Source of the DNA: Pseudoips prasinana
Lineage: Eukaryota; Arthropoda; Insecta; Lepidoptera; Nolidae
DNA length: 64,000 nt
Assembly (NCBI GenBank): GCA_951640165.1
Contig: OX621234.1
Location: forward strand, 24,060,549-24,124,548
Reading direction: 5' to 3'
Positions 1,395 through 25,484 of the stretch are shown piece after piece. The stretch's first letter is position 1. Each line of letters begins with the position of its first letter. The notes beneath the pieces were generated by a model that saw only the letters and a program-made list of their open reading frames with translations, was not told where the DNA came from and made no database searches. The translations under genes were made by a program, and so were the position numbers.

Positions 1395-2420
1395 TCAGTA
1401 ATCGGTATTTCCTCCTCTAACATTAATCACACAGCGGCAACGATTTTCCATACTTAAAATTAAGGTGTCAATGTCTTGCTGGGGTATGCAGTCCCAAGTT
1501 CTTTTTAAATGTTCGAAAAGTTGTTCTTCTGTTGTCAAGTTGGGCGGAAAATCCCTCAATGCTCTTCGCTGTAACATGTCCCAGGCGTGTTCAATTGGGT
1601 TTAAGTCTGGCGACTGTGGAGGCCAATCTAATACCTGAACATCGTGTTCTCGAAGGGCGGCCCTCACCAGCCGCGCTGTATGGGAAGGTGCATTGTCATG
1701 CATGAGCTGAAATTCTTGCCCCGTTAGGGCCCTGAGCGGGACAATGACACGTTCTACTACCTCCTCACGGTATCTATGGGCAGTCATGCTGCCCTGAATC
1801 CAAATGAGTTGGGTTCGTCCGCCGATTCGTATTCCTGCCCACACCATAATTGTCCCGCCTTGGTAAGAGTGGACCTCCTGTGGATGTCGGAGACGGCTGA
1901 CCCTGCCTGGAGTTCTCCAAACGCGTGTTCGTCTCGAATCTGGATGAAATCCATAGCGGGACTCATCAGTGAACAGCACCAATGACCATTGTTGATCACT
2001 CCATGTCAAATGTTCTTGAGCCCATAAAAGTCGCCTACCGCGATTGCCACGTCGCAGCGCTGGGACTCGTAGCGGTCTGCGAGCATGAAGACCAACTTCA
2101 TGCAGCCTCCTTCGCACGGTTTGGTCGCTCACCAGCAGCTGCTGACCCTCCTGGAGCCTTTGCACTAGTTGCATCGCTGTGATATTGGGTAGTCTTCTGG
2201 CGGTCATTTGGAGAAATCGATCCTGTCTCTGAGTGGTAACACGATATCTACCTATGTGCCGTTCTGCCACATCTCCAGTAGCGCGATAACGTGACCACAG
2301 CCTGGATACCACATTTTGGCTTGTGCCCAGAGACTCAGCAACGACGCGTTGAATAGCACCGTTTTGTAACATGCCAACTGCCCGTAACATTTCATCTCGA
2401 CTCAAATGATGGCGTGGCAT
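1395..2420 (-). CDS. Tc1-type DDE transposase, intact ORF
   Basis: This is a 341-codon uninterrupted frame from the ATG at 2420, giving MPRHHLSRDE. A further in-frame ATG lies at 2441. Tc1 transposases are normally about 340 aa. The N-terminus carries two helix-turn-helix-like segments for binding the inverted repeats. The catalytic triad is visible in LFTDES (D159), MHDNAPSH (D249) and NPIEH (E284), numbering from the upstream ATG. The spacing is DD34E, diagnostic of Tc1 rather than mariner (DD34D). The protein would cut and paste DNA at TA sites in the nucleus. I could not find convincing terminal inverted repeats within about 150 bp on either side. The gene is therefore intact, but the element's ends are not established and it may be immobile. 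Confidence 0.9.
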   Translation of the reverse strand: MPRHHLSRDEMLRAVGMLQNGAIQRVVAESLGTSQNVVSRLWSRYRATGDVAERHIGRYRVTTQRQDRFLQMTARRLPNITAMQLVQRLQEGQQLLVSDQTVRRRLHEVGLHARRPLRVPALRRGNRGRRLLWAQEHLTWSDQQWSLVLFTDESRYGFHPDSRRTRVWRTPGRVSRLRHPQEVHSYQGGTIMVWAGIRIGGRTQLIWIQGSMTAHRYREEVVERVIVPLRALTGQEFQLMHDNAPSHTARLVRAALREHDVQVLDWPPQSPDLNPIEHAWDMLQRRALRDFPPNLTTEEQLFEHLKRTWDCIPQQDIDTLILSMENRCRCVINVRGGNTDY

Positions 2421-10324: not shown

Positions 10325-10500
10325 AGTAGTATATTATTGGGCATTCTATACCACTATCGGCAAGTTGCTCGGCGAGTGCGCCTCGCTGCCGATAGTGGTA
10401 TAGAATGCCCAATAATTGATAATCGACTCGCCTTTCCACTCGACCGATAAACTCGACCGAGACAGTACATTTTGCTGCGTACTTGATGAGCAACGATGAT
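10325..10500 (+). repeat. Left terminal inverted repeat with terminal hairpin
   Basis: Positions 10325-10420 match the reverse complement of the right end almost perfectly, then similarity becomes patchy. Within it, 10333-10362 and 10387-10416 are exact 30-bp reverse complements around a 24-nt loop (10363-10386, 17 G/C). Part of the loop can pair again (GCGAG at 10372-10376 with CTCGC at 10382-10386). Downstream, ACTCGACCG occurs twice (10438-10446, 10451-10459). The terminal repeat is where protein-primed replication and integrase cleavage are expected to act. Confidence 0.93.
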
Positions 10501-12451: not shown

Positions 12452-12886
12452 ATGAACGTAGACAAATTCGGACACTACATTCACAAAAGAATGCGTTTAT
12501 CAGAGTTATTTGAGTTTAATGAGAACGCATTGTTAAAATTAGAAAACGGAGATTTTGATTTAAAAACATCAAGATTAAGAGGAGTCCGATCTCCAGTAGA
12601 AGCAGGCGATGCTGTGAACAAGGATTATGTAGATCGATTGAATGCTAACATGTTAAAAGAATTAAATAACCTGACCGTGAACAAGGATTACGTAGATCGA
12701 TTGAATGCTAATATGTTAAAAGAATTTAATAACATGATTGGTTCATTGCGCTCTCAAATCATAAAAGACACAAAGGACACAGTTCAGGCTACTTTAAAAG
12801 CAAAGATACCTGAGATTTCAACTCATTTGGAAGATAAGTTTTATACCCAAGCAGAGGTAGATAAATTACTACAAAAAACTCCGTAA
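12452..12886 (+). CDS. Fibre-like coiled-coil protein with duplicated repeat
   Basis: This is a 144-aa protein. After an N-terminal MNVDKFGHYIHKR segment comes a motif of the tail-fibre type (RLRGVRSPVEAGDAVNKDYVD), then a long helical, probably trimeric coiled-coil region. A 21-residue block beginning VNKDYVDRLNANMLKE occurs twice in tandem. It is encoded by a 63-nt direct repeat at 12614-12676 and 12677-12739, with only a few substitutions. The resemblance to phage tail fibres is to the short DAVNKxYVD motif only. A spike attached to the penton is plausible but unproven. Its stop TAA (12884-12886) overlaps the integrase ATG (12886-12888) as TAATG, suggesting coupled translation. Confidence 0.75.
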   Translation: MNVDKFGHYIHKRMRLSELFEFNENALLKLENGDFDLKTSRLRGVRSPVEAGDAVNKDYVDRLNANMLKELNNLTVNKDYVDRLNANMLKEFNNMIGSLRSQIIKDTKDTVQATLKAKIPEISTHLEDKFYTQAEVDKLLQKTP

Positions 12887-13821
12887 TGGCAAAACAGCAA
12901 ATTGTTAATGAAATACATAAAGCAGCACGAAGAAATTTCGTTAGACGTCCTGTCATTCTAAAGGGGATCGATGACTTGTGGCAAGCTGATCTGATGGACA
13001 TGCAAAATCTAAGAAAATATAATAAAGGTCATAATTACATTTTAGTGGTGATTGACTGCTTCTCAAAGTACGCTTGGGCAGAGCCATTAAAATCAAAAAA
13101 TAAACTTGATGTTACTCATGCATTTAAACGAATACTGATTAACAGCAATCGCAAACCGGTTAATTTACAAACTGATATGGGAACAGAATTTTATAACAAC
13201 TCATTTCAAACGCTTATGAAGACTTACAATGTTAACCATTACTCAACGTTTTCTACTAAAAAAGCTTCGATCGTAGAGCGACTGATTAAAACTCTTAAAA
13301 ATAAAATATATAAATATTTTAGTCTGAACGGAAACTATATGTGGTTAGGTATACCGTTAGAGGTTACGTTAAAGATATATAACAACACAAAACATCGTAC
13401 CATTAAATTTAAACCAATTGAAGTAAATAAATCTTGCGAGTCTGTTATAAAAGAAAATATTAAAAAAGCCTTAAATCATGTAACCGTCCGTAGAAAACCT
13501 AAGTTCAAAGTAGGTGACTTTGTTCGTATCAGTAAATACAAACACCATTTTGAAAAAGGTTATACACCTAATTGGTCAACTGAAATATTTACTATAAAAA
13601 AAATTAATCATACCATACCAGTAACATATCATATACAAGATCAGCGAAAGCAAGCCATAATGGGAACATTTTACGAGCAAGAACTTCAGAAATCTTACTA
13701 TCCTGGTATTTATTTGATAGAAAGGGTTTTAAAAAGAAAAGGATCAAAAATGTTTGTGAAATGGTTGGGTCTAAACAACGAAGAAAATAGTTGGATCGAG
13801 AAAACTGCAATAGTGGATTAA
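12886..13821 (+). CDS. Retrovirus-type DDE integrase with chromodomain
   Basis: This is a 311-aa protein. The catalytic core has D35 (LWQADLMDM), D97 (LQTDMGTEF) and E131 (SIVERLIK), an rve-type triad. The C-terminus (about 270-311, IYLIERVLKRKG...WLGLNNEENSWI) is a chromodomain-like module that could bind histone marks and steer integration. The N-terminal segment (EIHKAARRNFVRRPV) is the usual insect Maverick start, and no HHCC zinc finger is visible. It would process the terminal inverted repeats and join them to host DNA, making the 6-bp staggered cut seen as the AGTAAC duplication. It starts inside the fibre gene's stop codon (TAATG). The frame is intact. Confidence 0.95.
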   Translation: MAKQQIVNEIHKAARRNFVRRPVILKGIDDLWQADLMDMQNLRKYNKGHNYILVVIDCFSKYAWAEPLKSKNKLDVTHAFKRILINSNRKPVNLQTDMGTEFYNNSFQTLMKTYNVNHYSTFSTKKASIVERLIKTLKNKIYKYFSLNGNYMWLGIPLEVTLKIYNNTKHRTIKFKPIEVNKSCESVIKENIKKALNHVTVRRKPKFKVGDFVRISKYKHHFEKGYTPNWSTEIFTIKKINHTIPVTYHIQDQRKQAIMGTFYEQELQKSYYPGIYLIERVLKRKGSKMFVKWLGLNNEENSWIEKTAIVD

Positions 13822-13874: not shown

Positions 13875-14603
13875 ATGCAAGGAGGTGAACTTGTTAATAC
13901 CTTAATTAATAATCTACCGTTCGAACTTCATTTACCCGGCTACAATTATTGCGGTCCCGGAACTAAATTGCAGAAACGTTTATTACGAGGTGACCGAGGT
14001 GTAAATAAGCTAGACGAAGCTTGTATGCATCACGACATTGCATATGCAGACCATACAGACTTACCCAATCGCCACAAAGCTGATTTGCAACTACTAAATA
14101 TGGCTAAACAAAGACTTAAATCGAGCGATGCTGGGAAAGGTGAAAAACTTAGTTCATGGTTAGTGAGCAAAGTTATGAAAGCCAAACTGAAATCTGGTTC
14201 TGGCATTAAAACGTTTAAAAGTTTCGTGTCAAAAATAAAAGCAAAAATAAAGAAACTGAATCCAAAGGACAGTAAAGCTTTAATTAACGCTGCTTACTCA
14301 GCAGCAAAAAAAATAATCCCATGCATTCAGAAAATTCGAGTGCCGCGAGTGATACCCTTACCAAAGACTGGAGGTATTCTACCTTTAATCCCAATTTTTG
14401 CGGGTTTATCAGCTTTAGGAACTTTAGCTGGTGGTGCGGCTGGTATTGCAAAAACTGTTAACGATTACAAAGCAGGTCAGCAAAATTTGCGAGAAACACA
14501 ACGACATAATAAGGCTATGGAGTCTTTAAAGTTAGGTCAGGGCTTGTACATTAAGTCACATAAAAATGGTAATGGTTTATTCATTAAGTCTTCAAAAAAC
14601 TGA
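13875..14603 (+). CDS. PLA2-domain minor virion protein
   Basis: This is a 242-aa protein. Residues 23-30 (YNYCGPGT) form a phospholipase A2 calcium loop and residues 50-57 (CMHHDIAY) hold the catalytic His53-Asp54 pair. The layout is like the PLA2 of parvovirus VP1 and adintoviruses. A Lys-rich linker follows, then a Gly/Ala-rich hydrophobic stretch (about 167-192) that may insert in membranes, then a C-terminus with two GLYIK/GLFIK repeats. Known PLA2 virion proteins breach endosomal membranes during entry. That role is inferred here. The last sense codons are a slippery A AAA AAC followed at once by TGA, so part of the product may continue into the protease frame (see 14594). Confidence 0.88.
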   Translation: MQGGELVNTLINNLPFELHLPGYNYCGPGTKLQKRLLRGDRGVNKLDEACMHHDIAYADHTDLPNRHKADLQLLNMAKQRLKSSDAGKGEKLSSWLVSKVMKAKLKSGSGIKTFKSFVSKIKAKIKKLNPKDSKALINAAYSAAKKIIPCIQKIRVPRVIPLPKTGGILPLIPIFAGLSALGTLAGGAAGIAKTVNDYKAGQQNLRETQRHNKAMESLKLGQGLYIKSHKNGNGLFIKSSKN

Positions 14604-14680
14604 AAAATAAGCTACCTAATCGTCCTCTCACTAATATAGACATCCAAAGGTATGCACGCAACATCCCTCACTTTCGAGGA
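14594..14680 (+). promoter_or_regulatory. Candidate -1 ribosomal frameshift signal
   Basis: A AAA AAC at 14594-14600 is in the X XXY YYZ register of the PLA2 frame (TCA AAA AAC TGA), the same heptamer type used between gag and pro in several retroviruses. A -1 slip bypasses the TGA and enters the frame that continues unbroken into the protease. After a 10-nt spacer, GCTACCT (14611-14617) can pair with AGGTA-T-GC (14648-14655, one bulge). Loop bases TCCTC (14623-14627) can pair with GAGGA (14676-14680), a possible pseudoknot. The heptamer and frames are directly visible. The structure is a weak hand-drawn prediction. Confidence 0.65.
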
Positions 14681-14962
14681 GTATACATGAAGGATCAGTT
14701 ACCAAGGACGCCAAAACGGGTTGAATGTGGTGTTGTTAACTTGGCCGACTCTAAGAACGAAGGCACGCATTGGGTAGCTTATGTAAAAGTATGCAATTAT
14801 TGTGAATATTTTGATAGCTTTGGAGATTTAAAACCTCCAATGGAATTAATGCGATATTTTAAGAATTGTAATGTTTTTTATAATTATACAAGATATCAGA
14901 AATTCAACACTGTAAATTGTGGACACTTATGTTTAGAATATCTATGGAATTTTTGGAAATAA
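14600..14962 (+). CDS. Adenain-like cysteine protease
   Basis: The catalytic elements are GTHWV (His), FDSFG (Asp) and NCGHLCL (nucleophile Cys), in the order of adenovirus protease. The family matures capsid proteins. The first ATG is at 14687, which gives only 91 aa. The same frame is open upstream from a stop near 14585, and residues directly before that Met (IPHFRGVY) look like the conserved N-terminal strand of adenain. The gene therefore probably begins before any ATG, through a -1 shift from the PLA2 gene at 14600, giving about 120 protease residues. A non-AUG start or an ATG start with a shortened enzyme are the alternatives. AATAAA overlaps the stop (14957-14962). Confidence 0.88.
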   Translation: MKNKLPNRPLTNIDIQRYARNIPHFRGVYMKDQLPRTPKRVECGVVNLADSKNEGTHWVAYVKVCNYCEYFDSFGDLKPPMELMRYFKNCNVFYNYTRYQKFNTVNCGHLCLEYLWNFWK

Positions 14963-15828: not shown

Positions 15829-17039
15829 ATATCTTAGACGTTTTATCTGCTCCGACTTATGACAACACTGTTGAAGGAATCGAATTTCATTCTTACAAGC
15901 CCTACGTAACTAGTTTCAATAGAAACGATGAAATCCGCATACCTATTAACCAACAGGACTTGTATATACTTCCCTCAGCTAGTACCTTGTATTTGGAAGG
16001 AACTGTTGTCGTAAGTAAAAAGGATATGAAAGAGAAAGCCACTAGTGTTAATTTTACGAATAATGCTCTACTCTACTTATTCCAAGATATAAGATATGAG
16101 CTGAATGGAGTGGAAATTGATAGAATAAAAAACGCTGGCATAACTACCACCATGAAATCGTTAATATCAATGAGTGAAGGTGAATCAAAGATAGCCAATG
16201 CATGGGGCTGGAATATCGATGGAATAAAAAATATTAATGGGGGTAGTTTTTCTGCTTCTATACCCCTCTGTAACATTATCGGTTTTGCAGAAGATTTCAA
16301 GAAAGTCGTGATAAATAGTAGGCACGAACTGATATTGCTACGAAGTAACACTAATCTGAATGCTGTGAAACTTAACACCGGGGAATTTGTAGACGACGTT
16401 CAGATAAATAAAATCATCTGGCGTGTACCGCATGTTAAAGTATCCGACAAAGAAAAAATAAGTTTGCTAAAACTGTTAGAAAAAGATCGACCACTCCAGA
16501 TGATATTCAGAAATTGGGATCTGTACGAATATCCAGCTTTACCTAAAACTACAAAACATACCTGGTCTATCAAAACTTCCTCACAAATAGAGAAACCAAG
16601 ATACATAATTATAGGTCTACAAACAAATAGAAAAAACAATTCAAGTTCTGATATGTCCCAGTTCGATCACTGTCATGTTCGTGACGTTAGAGTATACTTA
16701 AACTCAACTTACTTCCCGTATGAAAACCTAAATGTCAGCTTCGCGAATAACAGAATCGCTTTATTATACGAGCAATACATCAGATTTCAACAGTCTTATT
16801 ACGGACGTCGCTCGGAACCCTTATTAAGTGAGAAACAATTCAAAGATTTGGCGCCGCTATTTGTCATAGATTGCTCTAGACAAGCTGATAATGTAAAGAC
16901 AGGTCCTATTGTGGATGTAAGAGTGGAAATTGAGAGTGATTCCGATATACCAGATCAAACTTCTGCATACTGTCTTATATTGAACGACTGCATAATTGAG
17001 TACAAGCCATTGAGTAATACTGTGAGAAAAATATCATGA
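15825..17039 (+). CDS. MCP: Major capsid protein (double jelly roll)
   Basis: This is a 404-aa protein. The N-terminal strands (YKPYVTSFNRNDEIRIPINQ), the LLYLFQDIRYELNGVEID segment and the WGWN and QMIFRNWDLYEYP blocks match hexon-like major capsid proteins of insect Mavericks/adintoviruses. These assemble as trimers into an icosahedral shell. Polinton MCPs range upward from about this length, so this is a short but complete version. The start ATG overlaps the preceding 49-aa gene's stop, and its own TGA (17037-17039) overlaps the next ATG. The frame is intact. Assignment rests on motif pattern and gene order. A structure prediction would settle the fold. Confidence 0.88.
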   Translation: MNILDVLSAPTYDNTVEGIEFHSYKPYVTSFNRNDEIRIPINQQDLYILPSASTLYLEGTVVVSKKDMKEKATSVNFTNNALLYLFQDIRYELNGVEIDRIKNAGITTTMKSLISMSEGESKIANAWGWNIDGIKNINGGSFSASIPLCNIIGFAEDFKKVVINSRHELILLRSNTNLNAVKLNTGEFVDDVQINKIIWRVPHVKVSDKEKISLLKLLEKDRPLQMIFRNWDLYEYPALPKTTKHTWSIKTSSQIEKPRYIIIGLQTNRKNNSSSDMSQFDHCHVRDVRVYLNSTYFPYENLNVSFANNRIALLYEQYIRFQQSYYGRRSEPLLSEKQFKDLAPLFVIDCSRQADNVKTGPIVDVRVEIESDSDIPDQTSAYCLILNDCIIEYKPLSNTVRKIS

Positions 17040-18763: not shown

Positions 18764-21700
18764 TCAAAGTAATTCATTCTTAAAAATAAATGCATGCCCC
18801 CAGGCTCGGGTTGATATTTGATCCACAGATATCGATCGTTTGTCATCATTTCTAGATAAAGCAACTTTGTTGACAGTCCGAGTAAATATTTCGTGCTTTA
18901 TTGATTTAAACATATTATTTTTTCTCCGGATTACTCCACCATTAAATAAAATGGTTTCATAGTCTGATAAGTTTAAATCCCTGACCACGCATGATTTTAC
19001 TCCTTTTGCTTTTTTAATGATACTATTAGGGGTTCTTATAGAGTAAAGTTTCGATCTCAAACCAACAAAATCAGTAATATATTTTCCTCCCATTTCATCT
19101 TTAAAGAGACCGGGAACCTTTTTATTTTTTAGCGGTATCTGTAAATCATTTGTGATTTCATAGTTACTGCTGTCAAAATATTGTAAAAAATTATATTTCA
19201 AATCATTGTAAAAATCGTTGGTGTATATTTTATAGACAAAGGAATCGGTATCTGTGTAACATAGCTGCACTCGATCTTTATAAAAAGGCTTTACAATATT
19301 GTAATGAAAGTAATACATGTGTGCTTTTGAAAGTTCTAATACAGCGAAACCTATGTATATAGGTTTATCTAAAATAATTTGATCAGGTTTCATTTGTATT
19401 GCAACTAAATTTTCTGATAAAATAGATGCACTGTGGAAATAGGGGTTGGCTATAAGTTTCTCAGCGGATATAAATTTCTTAGTTCGATTGGACTGATCGC
19501 ACCATTGATTAACTAAATGTACGGTTACTCTATTTTCAGTATTTTCTAATGTTTTTCCAAAAACACTGTTATTTAATAACTTAAAAAAGTCTTGTTCGAA
19601 GGAACTTTTTGCTTTCTGTCTTAATTGAGTATTTAACTCTATGTACTGTTTTAAATATGGACTCTGTCTAAAAGTAATTGCTCTATGAATTTTACGTAAT
19701 ATTAAACCATGTTCTAAACATTTTTTTAAATGAACGTAGTGAATCACATAGTTGTACTTATTATACAAATTTGCTATTAATTTCTTTGTTTTACCTCCCG
19801 GGGGTACACATTTTTCGGGACAAAATGGTAAGTCATTATGGTCATTATGTAAATGCTCGGGATACAATAGATCGACTTCTAATATGAAGCCCCAGTTTGC
19901 GTTATCCTCTATAGTGGTAACATTAAAATTTGCTAATTCGTTATCACTTAAAAATCTGAAACTAGAGTATGGTAAATACTGACACATGCTAAAACCGTAA
20001 AGATTATTACAATCTAAATATACTATGAAACTCTCAGGTTGTGATGGATTATATTCAGGCATGTATTTGTGATTGGCTCTAGCATGCCGATGGGAACACA
20101 TGCACAAACCGCCGCGTATACCGCTTTGTATCATTCTGATGATAGCTAAGTCCGACACGAGTTCTAACTGAACGCCCGTTTTTAGCAACATTGCATCGAA
20201 AGATAAACTAGGTGCAGTAATGTAAAACGCCGGGTCAAGACTGTAATATTGTTTACAGGTTTTCCGAAAATTTTGAAATATGTCTGTTAACAAAAGCACA
20301 TCCGTTTTTAAGTATAGATCCGTATACTCGCCGAGGTTATTAATATTGAATTCAGCCCAAACAGCCTGTGCGTGATTATAATCCTCATCTGTAATGTCTT
20401 CGTTAGTCAAATAATTATAAAAATTACCCTTAGACGGCAATGATTTTTGATCGTAACATTTCCAATTGGTCATGTAATCATAAGGATATATACCTTTTCT
20501 TGTCAATAAATTAAACTGTCTGTCTTTAGAAAAATGAAATCGAAGATTAACAAAATCTTCCACCTGCAATGTTTTAGCGAGCTTGTCTAAACTTGTCCCT
20601 AAAAAGTTGAATGAATCTAAAAATCTTATACAAATAAACTCATTATCAGCAATAGGAATAAATTTGGTGAATGCGACGTATTTTTCTTTAGTCTTAGGGA
20701 TTATTTTAATTGGACCTGGAATTTCGCCTAACTTTTTTATAAATAAATGACAATCGTACCCGGATAAATTGTGAAAAAATATTGGTATAAATTTTGGTAC
20801 TTTATGTTGCAAATTACAGTGTCGATGTGCTGCACCTCGATACAGGCCTGTAATATGACAATGATCTCTTACTTTATCGGTCAAGAGTAAATTGTCGCAA
20901 ATATGACACCTAACGGCACGTTTGAACTCTAGAGAATTGTCATCAGTGAATATCATAGGCTCGCTTTTGGATATAATCTGATGTATTTGTTTTACATCCT
21001 CAGTAAGAAAATTTATAAATTTTGAAACACAATCATTGCCGCGATAACTTCTATAGCCTTCAACGCTATCATTTTTATTTGATGACACGACATTGTAAGC
21101 GAATGCAGCCGGCACGTGGCGTTTAGAGTATGACGTATTAGCGGTGTTGAAATCATCGTCGGAAATGGGTTCAAGTAACGTTTCGAAATCAGCGTATATG
21201 ACGAATGGAATGTTTTGTTTCCTATCATAATTTTTAAATTTTAAAAATGAACCTTGTTCTGGTAAAACTGTGACGATCCCCCCACACAAGTGGGATTCAA
21301 TTTGACTAAGCGTTGGAAAAAACAATAAACAAGTTTCACAGAAATATAGTTTACCATGATGTTTGGTCATCTGATTTCTAACTAAACGAGATAAATCTTT
21401 GATAAGACAGTAATGAGAATTATTATTGTTTTCTATAAACAGTAGATGGATACTTTTATTAGACTTATTATTCAACGTTTTATAAAGCGGTCCAATAATT
21501 GTCTTCTCGTTTTTTAAACCATACACATATATATTAACAGAAGGATTATTTTTCTCAAAGATAGCTATGTCCGAAAATGTGATTGGAAATGTCAAATTAT
21601 TAACATTCAAAACATCCTGAAAGCGGGGATAAGACGAAATCCTATCGGGATGTCTATTTGTGGGGTACAATGCCGCCACAACACACCACAAAAAGCAATA

Positions 21701-22303
21701 CTCATCATTGTTCCGAATATTCAAACAAGCTCTTTTACTTTTTATGAATTTCGGCAAAGTTAAAAATTTAGATCCGCTGAGAGGTTGATATTTATTAATA
21801 TTTAATTCTAAATGTGAATTGCATAAAAAAGTCCAACCACTATCCCTTTCCTCAAATTCTTCAATTTTTTTTAGTAGTAAATCAATAGTTAGTTTATAAA
21901 TAGAATCAAAATCGTAATTAAAATGTGTAATAATGTTGTTTGTACGGAATGATTTTATTTCTTGTTGATCATTTTTATACATAAGAAACGAAGCAAACAG
22001 TTCAAAATTTATTTTGACAGAGGTGTGTTTCTCTATTGAATTGTCTATTAAATGTTTGACTTGTGTACTAATACTTTTGAGAAACACCTCAGGAAAACTA
22101 TGTATTTGTTCACCTGTCGCTATGATTTTGTAACTTTTGATTCGTTCTTTAAAAGAAGAATTAATAATTACAACATTATCATACATAGGGTTAGAACTAT
22201 TGTTTTTATGTACATTGCTACGTAAATGACCAGACCATCGACGATTGTCTACAAATACTTTACAATCAGAGCAGTGAGGCATTATATTATTGTTTGAAAT
22301 CAA
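18764..22303 (-). CDS. PolB: Protein-primed family B DNA polymerase
   Basis: This is an 1179-aa protein. The N-terminus has a C2H2-type finger (C11, C14, H26, H32) and a second Cys/His cluster at about 322-340. The exonuclease has ExoI YADFET (D372, E374) and HNLSGYD (N512, D517). A Cys/His motif at 466-496 (CHIC...DHCHITG...HRHC) resembles an endonuclease-VII/HNH-like insertion common in Polinton PolBs. Polymerase motifs are A YLDCNNLYG (D764), B LLNNSVFGKT (909-918) and C YTDTDS (D1018, D1020). The spacing between A and B fits the TPR insertions of protein-primed enzymes. It would copy the element from its terminal repeats using a protein primer. Alternative start: Met8. The frame is fully intact, transcribed leftward opposite to the late genes. 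Confidence 0.97.
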   Translation of the reverse strand: MISNNNIMPHCSDCKVFVDNRRWSGHLRSNVHKNNSSNPMYDNVVIINSSFKERIKSYKIIATGEQIHSFPEVFLKSISTQVKHLIDNSIEKHTSVKINFELFASFLMYKNDQQEIKSFRTNNIITHFNYDFDSIYKLTIDLLLKKIEEFEERDSGWTFLCNSHLELNINKYQPLSGSKFLTLPKFIKSKRACLNIRNNDEYCFLWCVVAALYPTNRHPDRISSYPRFQDVLNVNNLTFPITFSDIAIFEKNNPSVNIYVYGLKNEKTIIGPLYKTLNNKSNKSIHLLFIENNNNSHYCLIKDLSRLVRNQMTKHHGKLYFCETCLLFFPTLSQIESHLCGGIVTVLPEQGSFLKFKNYDRKQNIPFVIYADFETLLEPISDDDFNTANTSYSKRHVPAAFAYNVVSSNKNDSVEGYRSYRGNDCVSKFINFLTEDVKQIHQIISKSEPMIFTDDNSLEFKRAVRCHICDNLLLTDKVRDHCHITGLYRGAAHRHCNLQHKVPKFIPIFFHNLSGYDCHLFIKKLGEIPGPIKIIPKTKEKYVAFTKFIPIADNEFICIRFLDSFNFLGTSLDKLAKTLQVEDFVNLRFHFSKDRQFNLLTRKGIYPYDYMTNWKCYDQKSLPSKGNFYNYLTNEDITDEDYNHAQAVWAEFNINNLGEYTDLYLKTDVLLLTDIFQNFRKTCKQYYSLDPAFYITAPSLSFDAMLLKTGVQLELVSDLAIIRMIQSGIRGGLCMCSHRHARANHKYMPEYNPSQPESFIVYLDCNNLYGFSMCQYLPYSSFRFLSDNELANFNVTTIEDNANWGFILEVDLLYPEHLHNDHNDLPFCPEKCVPPGGKTKKLIANLYNKYNYVIHYVHLKKCLEHGLILRKIHRAITFRQSPYLKQYIELNTQLRQKAKSSFEQDFFKLLNNSVFGKTLENTENRVTVHLVNQWCDQSNRTKKFISAEKLIANPYFHSASILSENLVAIQMKPDQIILDKPIYIGFAVLELSKAHMYYFHYNIVKPFYKDRVQLCYTDTDSFVYKIYTNDFYNDLKYNFLQYFDSSNYEITNDLQIPLKNKKVPGLFKDEMGGKYITDFVGLRSKLYSIRTPNSIIKKAKGVKSCVVRDLNLSDYETILFNGGVIRRKNNMFKSIKHEIFTRTVNKVALSRNDDKRSISVDQISTRAWGHAFIFKNELL

Positions 22304-25300: not shown

Positions 25301-25484
25301 GTCGAGTATCGATTTGCTCGAATTATCGTTCCAAATCAAGTTCTCAGTACAATGTACTGTCTCGGTCGAGTGGAGAGGCGAGTAGATTATCAATTATTGG
25401 GCATTCTATACCACTATCGGCAGCGAGGCGCACTCGCCGAGCAACTTGCCGATAGTGGTATAGAATGCCCAATAATATACTACT
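25301..25484 (-). repeat. Right terminal inverted repeat with terminal hairpin
   Basis: 25393-25422 and 25447-25476 are exact 30-bp reverse complements with a 24-nt loop (25423-25446). The loop is the exact reverse complement of the left loop, so both ends have the same hairpin in the same orientation relative to the element. The element ends ATACTACT at 25484, the inverse of the left AGTAGTAT. Confidence 0.93.

Follow-up and report, generated by a model that had tools for sequence, protein, structure and literature searches.

The window analysed here, a stretch of 64,000 nt from Pseudoips prasinana (contig OX621234.1 of assembly GCA_951640165.1, positions 24,060,549-24,124,548, forward strand), contains a Polinton of about 15 kb lying between inverted repeats, and this work concerns the junction between two genes of that element, those encoding the PLA2 virion protein and an adenain-like protease (Table 1). 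An earlier note on this DNA had described an A AAA AAC heptamer in exact register immediately before the PLA2 TGA, a -1 frame open from a stop near 14585 into the protease, and the lack of any ATG in that frame before 14687, and had read the arrangement as a gag-pro-style -1 frameshift. All these features were found as described: the heptamer supplies the zero-frame codons AAA (14595-14597) and AAC (14598-14600), and the -1 frame, preceded by a TAA at 14585-14587, remains open from 14588 to its stop at 14962. At the junction, a heptamer of the X XXY YYZ type, read in the zero frame, is combined with a -1 open reading frame (ORF) that is under selection and has no start codon of its own, and an RNA structure is predicted downstream, after a spacer of 6 nt.

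Table 1. Features of the PLA2-protease junction and ends of the Polinton (window coordinates)
Feature	Position	Strand	Remarks
Left terminal inverted repeat of the Polinton	10325..10500	.	
PLA2 virion protein gene	13875..14603	+	242 aa, stop TGA; Pfam PF08398, E 3.4e-14
-1 frame for a predicted adenain-fold cysteine protease	14588..14962	+	124 codons plus stop
Slippery heptamer A AAA AAC	14594..14600	+	X XXY YYZ register of the PLA2 frame
PLA2 stop codon TGA	14601..14603	+	directly 3' of the heptamer
Predicted stimulatory stem, 5' arm	14607..14620	+	6 nt past the heptamer
Loop closed by the predicted stem	14621..14768	+	148 nt, within the protease gene
First ATG of the -1 frame	14687..14689	+	residue 34
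Predicted stem, 3' arm	14769..14782	+	encodes HWVAY, including the presumed catalytic His
Right terminal inverted repeat	25322..25484	.	

The downstream protein is predicted to be a cysteine protease of the adenain fold, and the prediction includes the part that precedes the first ATG. From residues 11-13 onwards, the sequence aligns with adenain from its residue 1 or 2, and a start at the ATG at 14687 would lose the part aligning with the first ~25 residues of adenain. In alignments of 23 and 47 sequences, picked for including this N-terminal part, P10, L14, D18, F29, R30 and G31, all located before the first ATG, were invariant or nearly so, as anticipated by the earlier note, to which the residues before that ATG had looked like the conserved N-terminus of the protease. 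H61, C111 and Q104 were invariant in the protease alignments and we take them, by analogy with adenain, to be the catalytic His, Cys and Gln. Across residues 9-33, the proportion of nonsynonymous differences (pN) was 0.07-0.28 versus 0.29-0.99 for synonymous ones (pS) in the 21 pairs formed by seven representatives of the copies described below, a pattern suggesting that these residues are translated in the -1 frame. This constraint makes it very unlikely that the protease begins at its own AUG at 14687 and that the -1 frame upstream is left untranslated. An ATG is indeed present at residue 34, and gene callers, applying bacterial start rules, started 19 of 31 paired relatives at the equivalent Met; however, such a start would explain neither the selection on residues 9-33, several of them invariant or nearly so, nor the alignment of the region before the ATG with the first residues of adenain, nor the K-N that precedes the PLA2 stop.

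Conservation of the junction was then evaluated among other copies in the genome (1.126 Gb in 56 contigs). Of 298 first-look protease candidates 150 were scored and all 150 matched, and copy counts are lower bounds because only these were scored. We studied 89 loci, comprising the window, 8 loci from the initial search and 80 chosen from all score levels; they represented 35 distinct 210-nt junctions and five subfamilies (A to E) of one genome. Protease identity to subfamily A, to which the window belongs, was 82-83% for B (lower in fragments), 59-62% for C and 56-58% for D and E, and synonymous sites were near saturation between most of the five. The exact heptamer was retained in register in 88 of the 89 loci, the exception (L010) reading ATAAAAC with the stop directly after it. 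L020 carries an indel within its protease; its heptamer keeps the register with LPNR, and the next codon is TGA. The PLA2 stop came directly after the heptamer site at every locus (TAA in 28, TGA in 60 plus L020), and in none of the 89 did the stretch from the upstream stop to the heptamer contain an ATG in the -1 frame; four subfamily E copies carried an ATG inside ...DIMKY, past the conserved start of the protease. Taken at the sequence level, this retention of the heptamer and absence of an upstream start support the frameshift that the earlier note had proposed. A simple indel, the alternative it had asked to be checked in related copies, was rejected since the two-frame layout recurs across five diverged subfamilies. 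Outside these loci, neither the protease query nor the A1 query found a relative in the viral contigs, and A1 found none in the genome contigs; the PLA2 alignment A3 gave one distant match, L089 (32% identity), in the viral contigs and none in the genome contigs.

The same copies bear on two other routes by which the frames could be joined. All 88 intact copies had C as the last base of the heptamer, even though a synonymous alternative exists in each frame (AAC/AAT and CTN/TTR), and the A-run at the heptamer ranged from A6 to A8. Runs of this kind, together with a protein (P0083) that looks like a one-frame relative of P0264 diverging at the A-run, could suggest that transcriptional slippage, and not the ribosome, mixes the frames. 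We regard this as highly improbable, given that the A6 of subfamilies A and B is short and that neither the invariant final C nor a stem at 6-10 nt from the heptamer would be required for slippage. The N-terminus of the protease could, in turn, come from splicing or from a non-AUG start: transcription of such elements probably takes place in the nucleus, and subfamily A has a CTG right after the slip site and an AG ahead of CTA. The representative of subfamily C, however, has no AG between the -1 frame stop and the LP codons, so an in-frame splice acceptor cannot add the N-terminal part there; where A and B have CTG, subfamilies C, D and E have CTA, and no near-cognate codon is common to the seven representatives. 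This route also leaves the heptamer and the stem unexplained, and we give it hardly any credence.

Related proteins in databases provided a view beyond this genome. Among the 120 PLA2 relatives listed out of 2,414 matches, 115 ended in K-N and the other 5 extended one or two residues beyond it; K-N was found near the PLA2 end in all 31 PLA2-protease pairs, a subset of the 120. A second set consisted of 113 new proteins, several of them named as beetle proteins, of which 65 lacked the protease motif used as a filter. K-N occurred near the C-terminus of 61 of these 65, followed in 56 by Y, F, S or C; it was missing near the end of P0322, P0332, P0342 and P0354, the first of which continues into protease-like sequence. 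For the residue preceding K-N, a codon ending in A was possible in all 181 proteins (120 + 61), as expected if A AAA AAY is conserved. An A-ending codon was impossible one residue further up in 25/120 and 24/61 proteins, three residues up of K-N in 32/120 and 1/61, and four residues up in 8/120 and 5/61, so the first set supports the argument better than the second. The two overlapping peptides, PLA2 K-N and protease K-K-L, jointly set six of the seven heptamer bases, and the heptamer might be nothing but a by-product of this double protein constraint, with no slip involved. We assign this possibility a next to negligible probability: K-K-L is missing in many of the relatives starting at Met and in most one-frame relatives (P0258 and P0083 do have it), and an overlap that lacks a start would still require a route into the second frame.

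In some other elements both domains are encoded in one frame, as in P0246 and P0258, which carry PF08398 plus protease sequence, and in further cases; these ORFs indicate that the fusion is a workable protein. Separately, P0283, without a Pfam match, has a C-terminal protease sequence of the same kind in one frame, and fusion to the protease may likewise extend to other upstream proteins. One or two G.GL motifs were found within the last 40 residues of PLA2 in all 120 relatives (two in 103). In the window they are at residues 221 and 232 (14535-14590), and elsewhere among ten ORFs of the element G.GL appears once, at residue 239 of ORF2 (KGKGLPF). Because adenain favours G-containing cleavage sites, these motifs could be sites for the protease.

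Absent from the earlier note was a putative stem downstream of the heptamer, which would supply the second of the classical elements of such a frameshift signal. Among helices beginning no more than 20 nt from the heptamer, the one pairing 14607-14620 with 14769-14782 was the strongest in 11 of 11 loci from the five subfamilies. In the window it comprises 14 pairs, against 10-11 unbroken pairs in the other loci, where the loop reaches up to 150 nt, with duplex energies of -15.0 to -18.4 kcal/mol, and in all seven representatives the minimum free energy fold of a 195-nt segment included it, with pair probabilities ≥0.999. The spacer, 6 nt in the window, is 9 nt to the stem core in C, D and E. 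This signal emerged only once partners up to 370 nt downstream were allowed: a local hairpin alone was discarded, as 90-nt folds after the heptamer gave z values of -1.6 to +1.1 in seven of eight loci and -3.5 in one, and a competing 7-bp stem in subfamily B was weaker.

The arms of the predicted stem encode (K/R)LP(N/K) and HWVAY. Random replacement of the codons in both arms by synonyms, following the usage of the element, reached the observed energy with P 0.0005-0.0055 in each of the seven representatives, and none of 914 control positions had a 16-nt arm at the same distance that was as strong. The pairing relies on rare codons: CGG, which makes up 7% of Arg codons, in C, D and E, and, in each of the seven representatives, CTA/CTG (12% and 9% of Leu); L024 has TTA instead of CTA/CTG. 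Subfamily A has A-U at the pair 14610-14779, where C, D and E have G-C; pairs 14613-14776, 14614-14775 and 14617-14772 vary through G-U. Codon identity was 48/71 inside the arms versus 186/394 elsewhere (pairs of five representatives), a difference in the same direction, if weak and non-independent.

From the conserved junction and the predicted stem, we consider it highly probable that this is a programmed -1 ribosomal frameshift cassette delivering the protease as an extension of PLA2. Most ribosomes would terminate PLA2 at the TGA that follows A AAA AAC; a minority, held up by a stem of 10-14 bp located 6-10 nt downstream and closing a loop of ~150 nt, would slip one base back on the heptamer and go on in the -1 frame. 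The slip product, minor beside free PLA2, would be PLA2 with a C-terminal adenain-type protease, which, attached to a structural protein as a minor domain, would enter assembly in the manner of retroviral Gag-Pro. Self-cleavage would then free the protease, with the conserved G.GL motifs in the tail of PLA2 as possible sites.

Several observations weigh against this interpretation. All the DNA comes from one genome, other species being represented as predicted proteins only, and the subfamilies share ancestry, so that neither the conservation tests nor the P values of the stem are independent. The peptides K-K-L and K-N account at the protein level for six of the seven bases; the A-ending-codon argument is not unique to the position before K-N (four residues up it fails in just 8/120, three up in 1/61); and in the annotation of some relatives, for example P0096, the adenain of Bos-associated insect adintovirus, the protein starts at a Met of its own. 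As to the stem, other measures deviated less from synonymous codons than did its energy (run length, P 0.004-0.04; pair number, P 0.0004-0.035), in the window and in L036 the strongest control fell short of the observed stem by no more than ~1.2 kcal/mol, and 14610-14779, the sole two-sided compensatory change in the core, may be a single event and is broken in subfamily B. In that subfamily the unbroken core begins at 10 nt, beyond the 5-9 nt range unless the pairs below a mismatch are counted, and when the stem test was limited to starts at 5-9 nt, six of the seven representatives passed and L014 (subfamily B) failed. Finally, the 182-nt domain compared to shuffles yielded z values of -1.5 to -4.4, modest in some loci, and the 90-nt folding showed no clear excess in seven of eight.

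On a broader scale, we lean towards the view that an ancient -1 cassette is common to Polintons from several insect orders, one in which the protease can be made only as an extension of PLA2, the membrane-penetration protein, and the stem driving the slip is built from the protease's own codons, its 3' arm around the presumed catalytic His, in convergence with the loading of Gag-Pro. Programmed -1 frameshifting for protease delivery is a retroviral hallmark; a conserved case in integrating double-stranded DNA (dsDNA) elements would mean, if true, that the same assembly problem received the same translational answer. The frameshift would also offer a way to test if Polintons still produce virions, and Polinton proteases called from an internal Met or as separate ORFs may, if it is true, be misannotated.

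The element harbouring this junction has the attributes of a Polinton/Maverick: terminal inverted repeats (98% complementary between 10325-10447 and 25362-25484, and 84% between 10451-10500 and 25322-25371), an rve integrase (E 3.1e-12) with a chromodomain (Chromo E 0.003, below the Chromo cut-off), a double jelly-roll major capsid protein (PF21738, E 1e-109) and an A32-like packaging ATPase (PF04665, E 9.3e-06, above the cut-off). The plus strand encodes the ATPase, two ORFs with no Pfam family above cut-off, the integrase, PLA2, the protease and further ORFs, which include a Pfam-less ORF at the place expected for the penton, the capsid protein and a 158-aa ORF. On the opposite strand lies a polymerase-sized ORF of 1172 aa (18764-22282), for which the Pfam scan (threshold E 0.01) gave no polymerase family and a sole weak match to Endonuclease_7 (E 0.0013); the excerpted description of the Spodoptera frugiperda (Sf) Maverick lists a POLB of 1162 aa with a weak endonuclease VII match beside the polymerase match (PMC5803895). 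The ORF3 stop and integrase start overlap as TAATG (12884-12888), and the ORF8 start and capsid protein stop as ATGA (17036-17039), suggesting coupled translation on a polycistronic mRNA. ORF3 also contains a 61-nt direct repeat (12614-12737; 93% identity at a spacing of 63 nt) that duplicates VNKDYVDRLNANMLKE in frame. Elsewhere in the window, an intact 341-aa ORF (1395-2420, minus strand) presumably resembles a DDE transposase of the Tc1/mariner type.

The mechanism put forward here is of a known kind, and its use in this setting is undescribed as far as the literature searched shows, apart from a remark in a 2024 preprint (PMC11071296). The remark of the earlier note that it knew of no such case in Polintons therefore needs qualification: no PLA2-adenain frameshift was found in the literature searched, the first adintovirus paper (PMC8502044) being outside its scope, but the consulted sections of PMC11071296, the sole statement on frameshifting in such elements found there, report suspected frameshifts for the penton and for hexon-adenain ('Hexain') of adintoviruses, naming KnotInFrame for the penton case and stating a similar relationship for hexon-adenain. 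Those cases resemble ours in the relatedness of the elements, the -1 frame and, in one of them, adenain downstream, and differ in that those sections do not name PLA2-adenain, for which we find a subfamily-wide signal plus a predicted stem. S. frugiperda Mavericks 1 and 2 are described in the portions consulted of PMC5803895 as having eight small tandem ORFs and a large one, nine in all, including ATP, INT, CAP (PLA2), PRO and POLB in an order matching that of the window; those portions treat CAP and PRO as separate ORFs and mention no frameshift between them. A Spodoptera CAP (P0133) is 86% identical to the window PLA2 and also has the K-N end. The one-frame fusions P0246 and P0258 join the same two domains in one polypeptide, for which no change of frame is needed. 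Adenovirus adenain, by contrast, has its own start, and its chains of 202-205 residues exceed the window protease by ~80. According to the parts seen of PMC8537868, its translation, like that of pre-pVI and hexon, takes place from late L3 mRNA; the frameshifts mentioned in those parts and in the sections seen of PMC12567637 concern other viruses.

The likeness to retroviral gag-pro lies in the class of heptamer, the slip at the end of a structural gene, the protease as a minor extension and the downstream RNA structure. The gag-pro -1 signals of mouse mammary tumour virus, bovine leukaemia virus and human T-cell leukaemia virus use the same A AAA AAC. Unlike in those viruses, the signal resides here in a dsDNA element, the upstream gene encodes a PLA2 virion protein, and the predicted stem is long-range, with a ~150-nt loop and a 3' arm within the protease coding sequence. 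Moreover, gag-pro has an aspartic protease downstream of Gag, whereas the fold predicted here is that of an adenain-type cysteine protease. By analogy, the PLA2-protease cassette would work like gag-pro and yet is not a member of that class.
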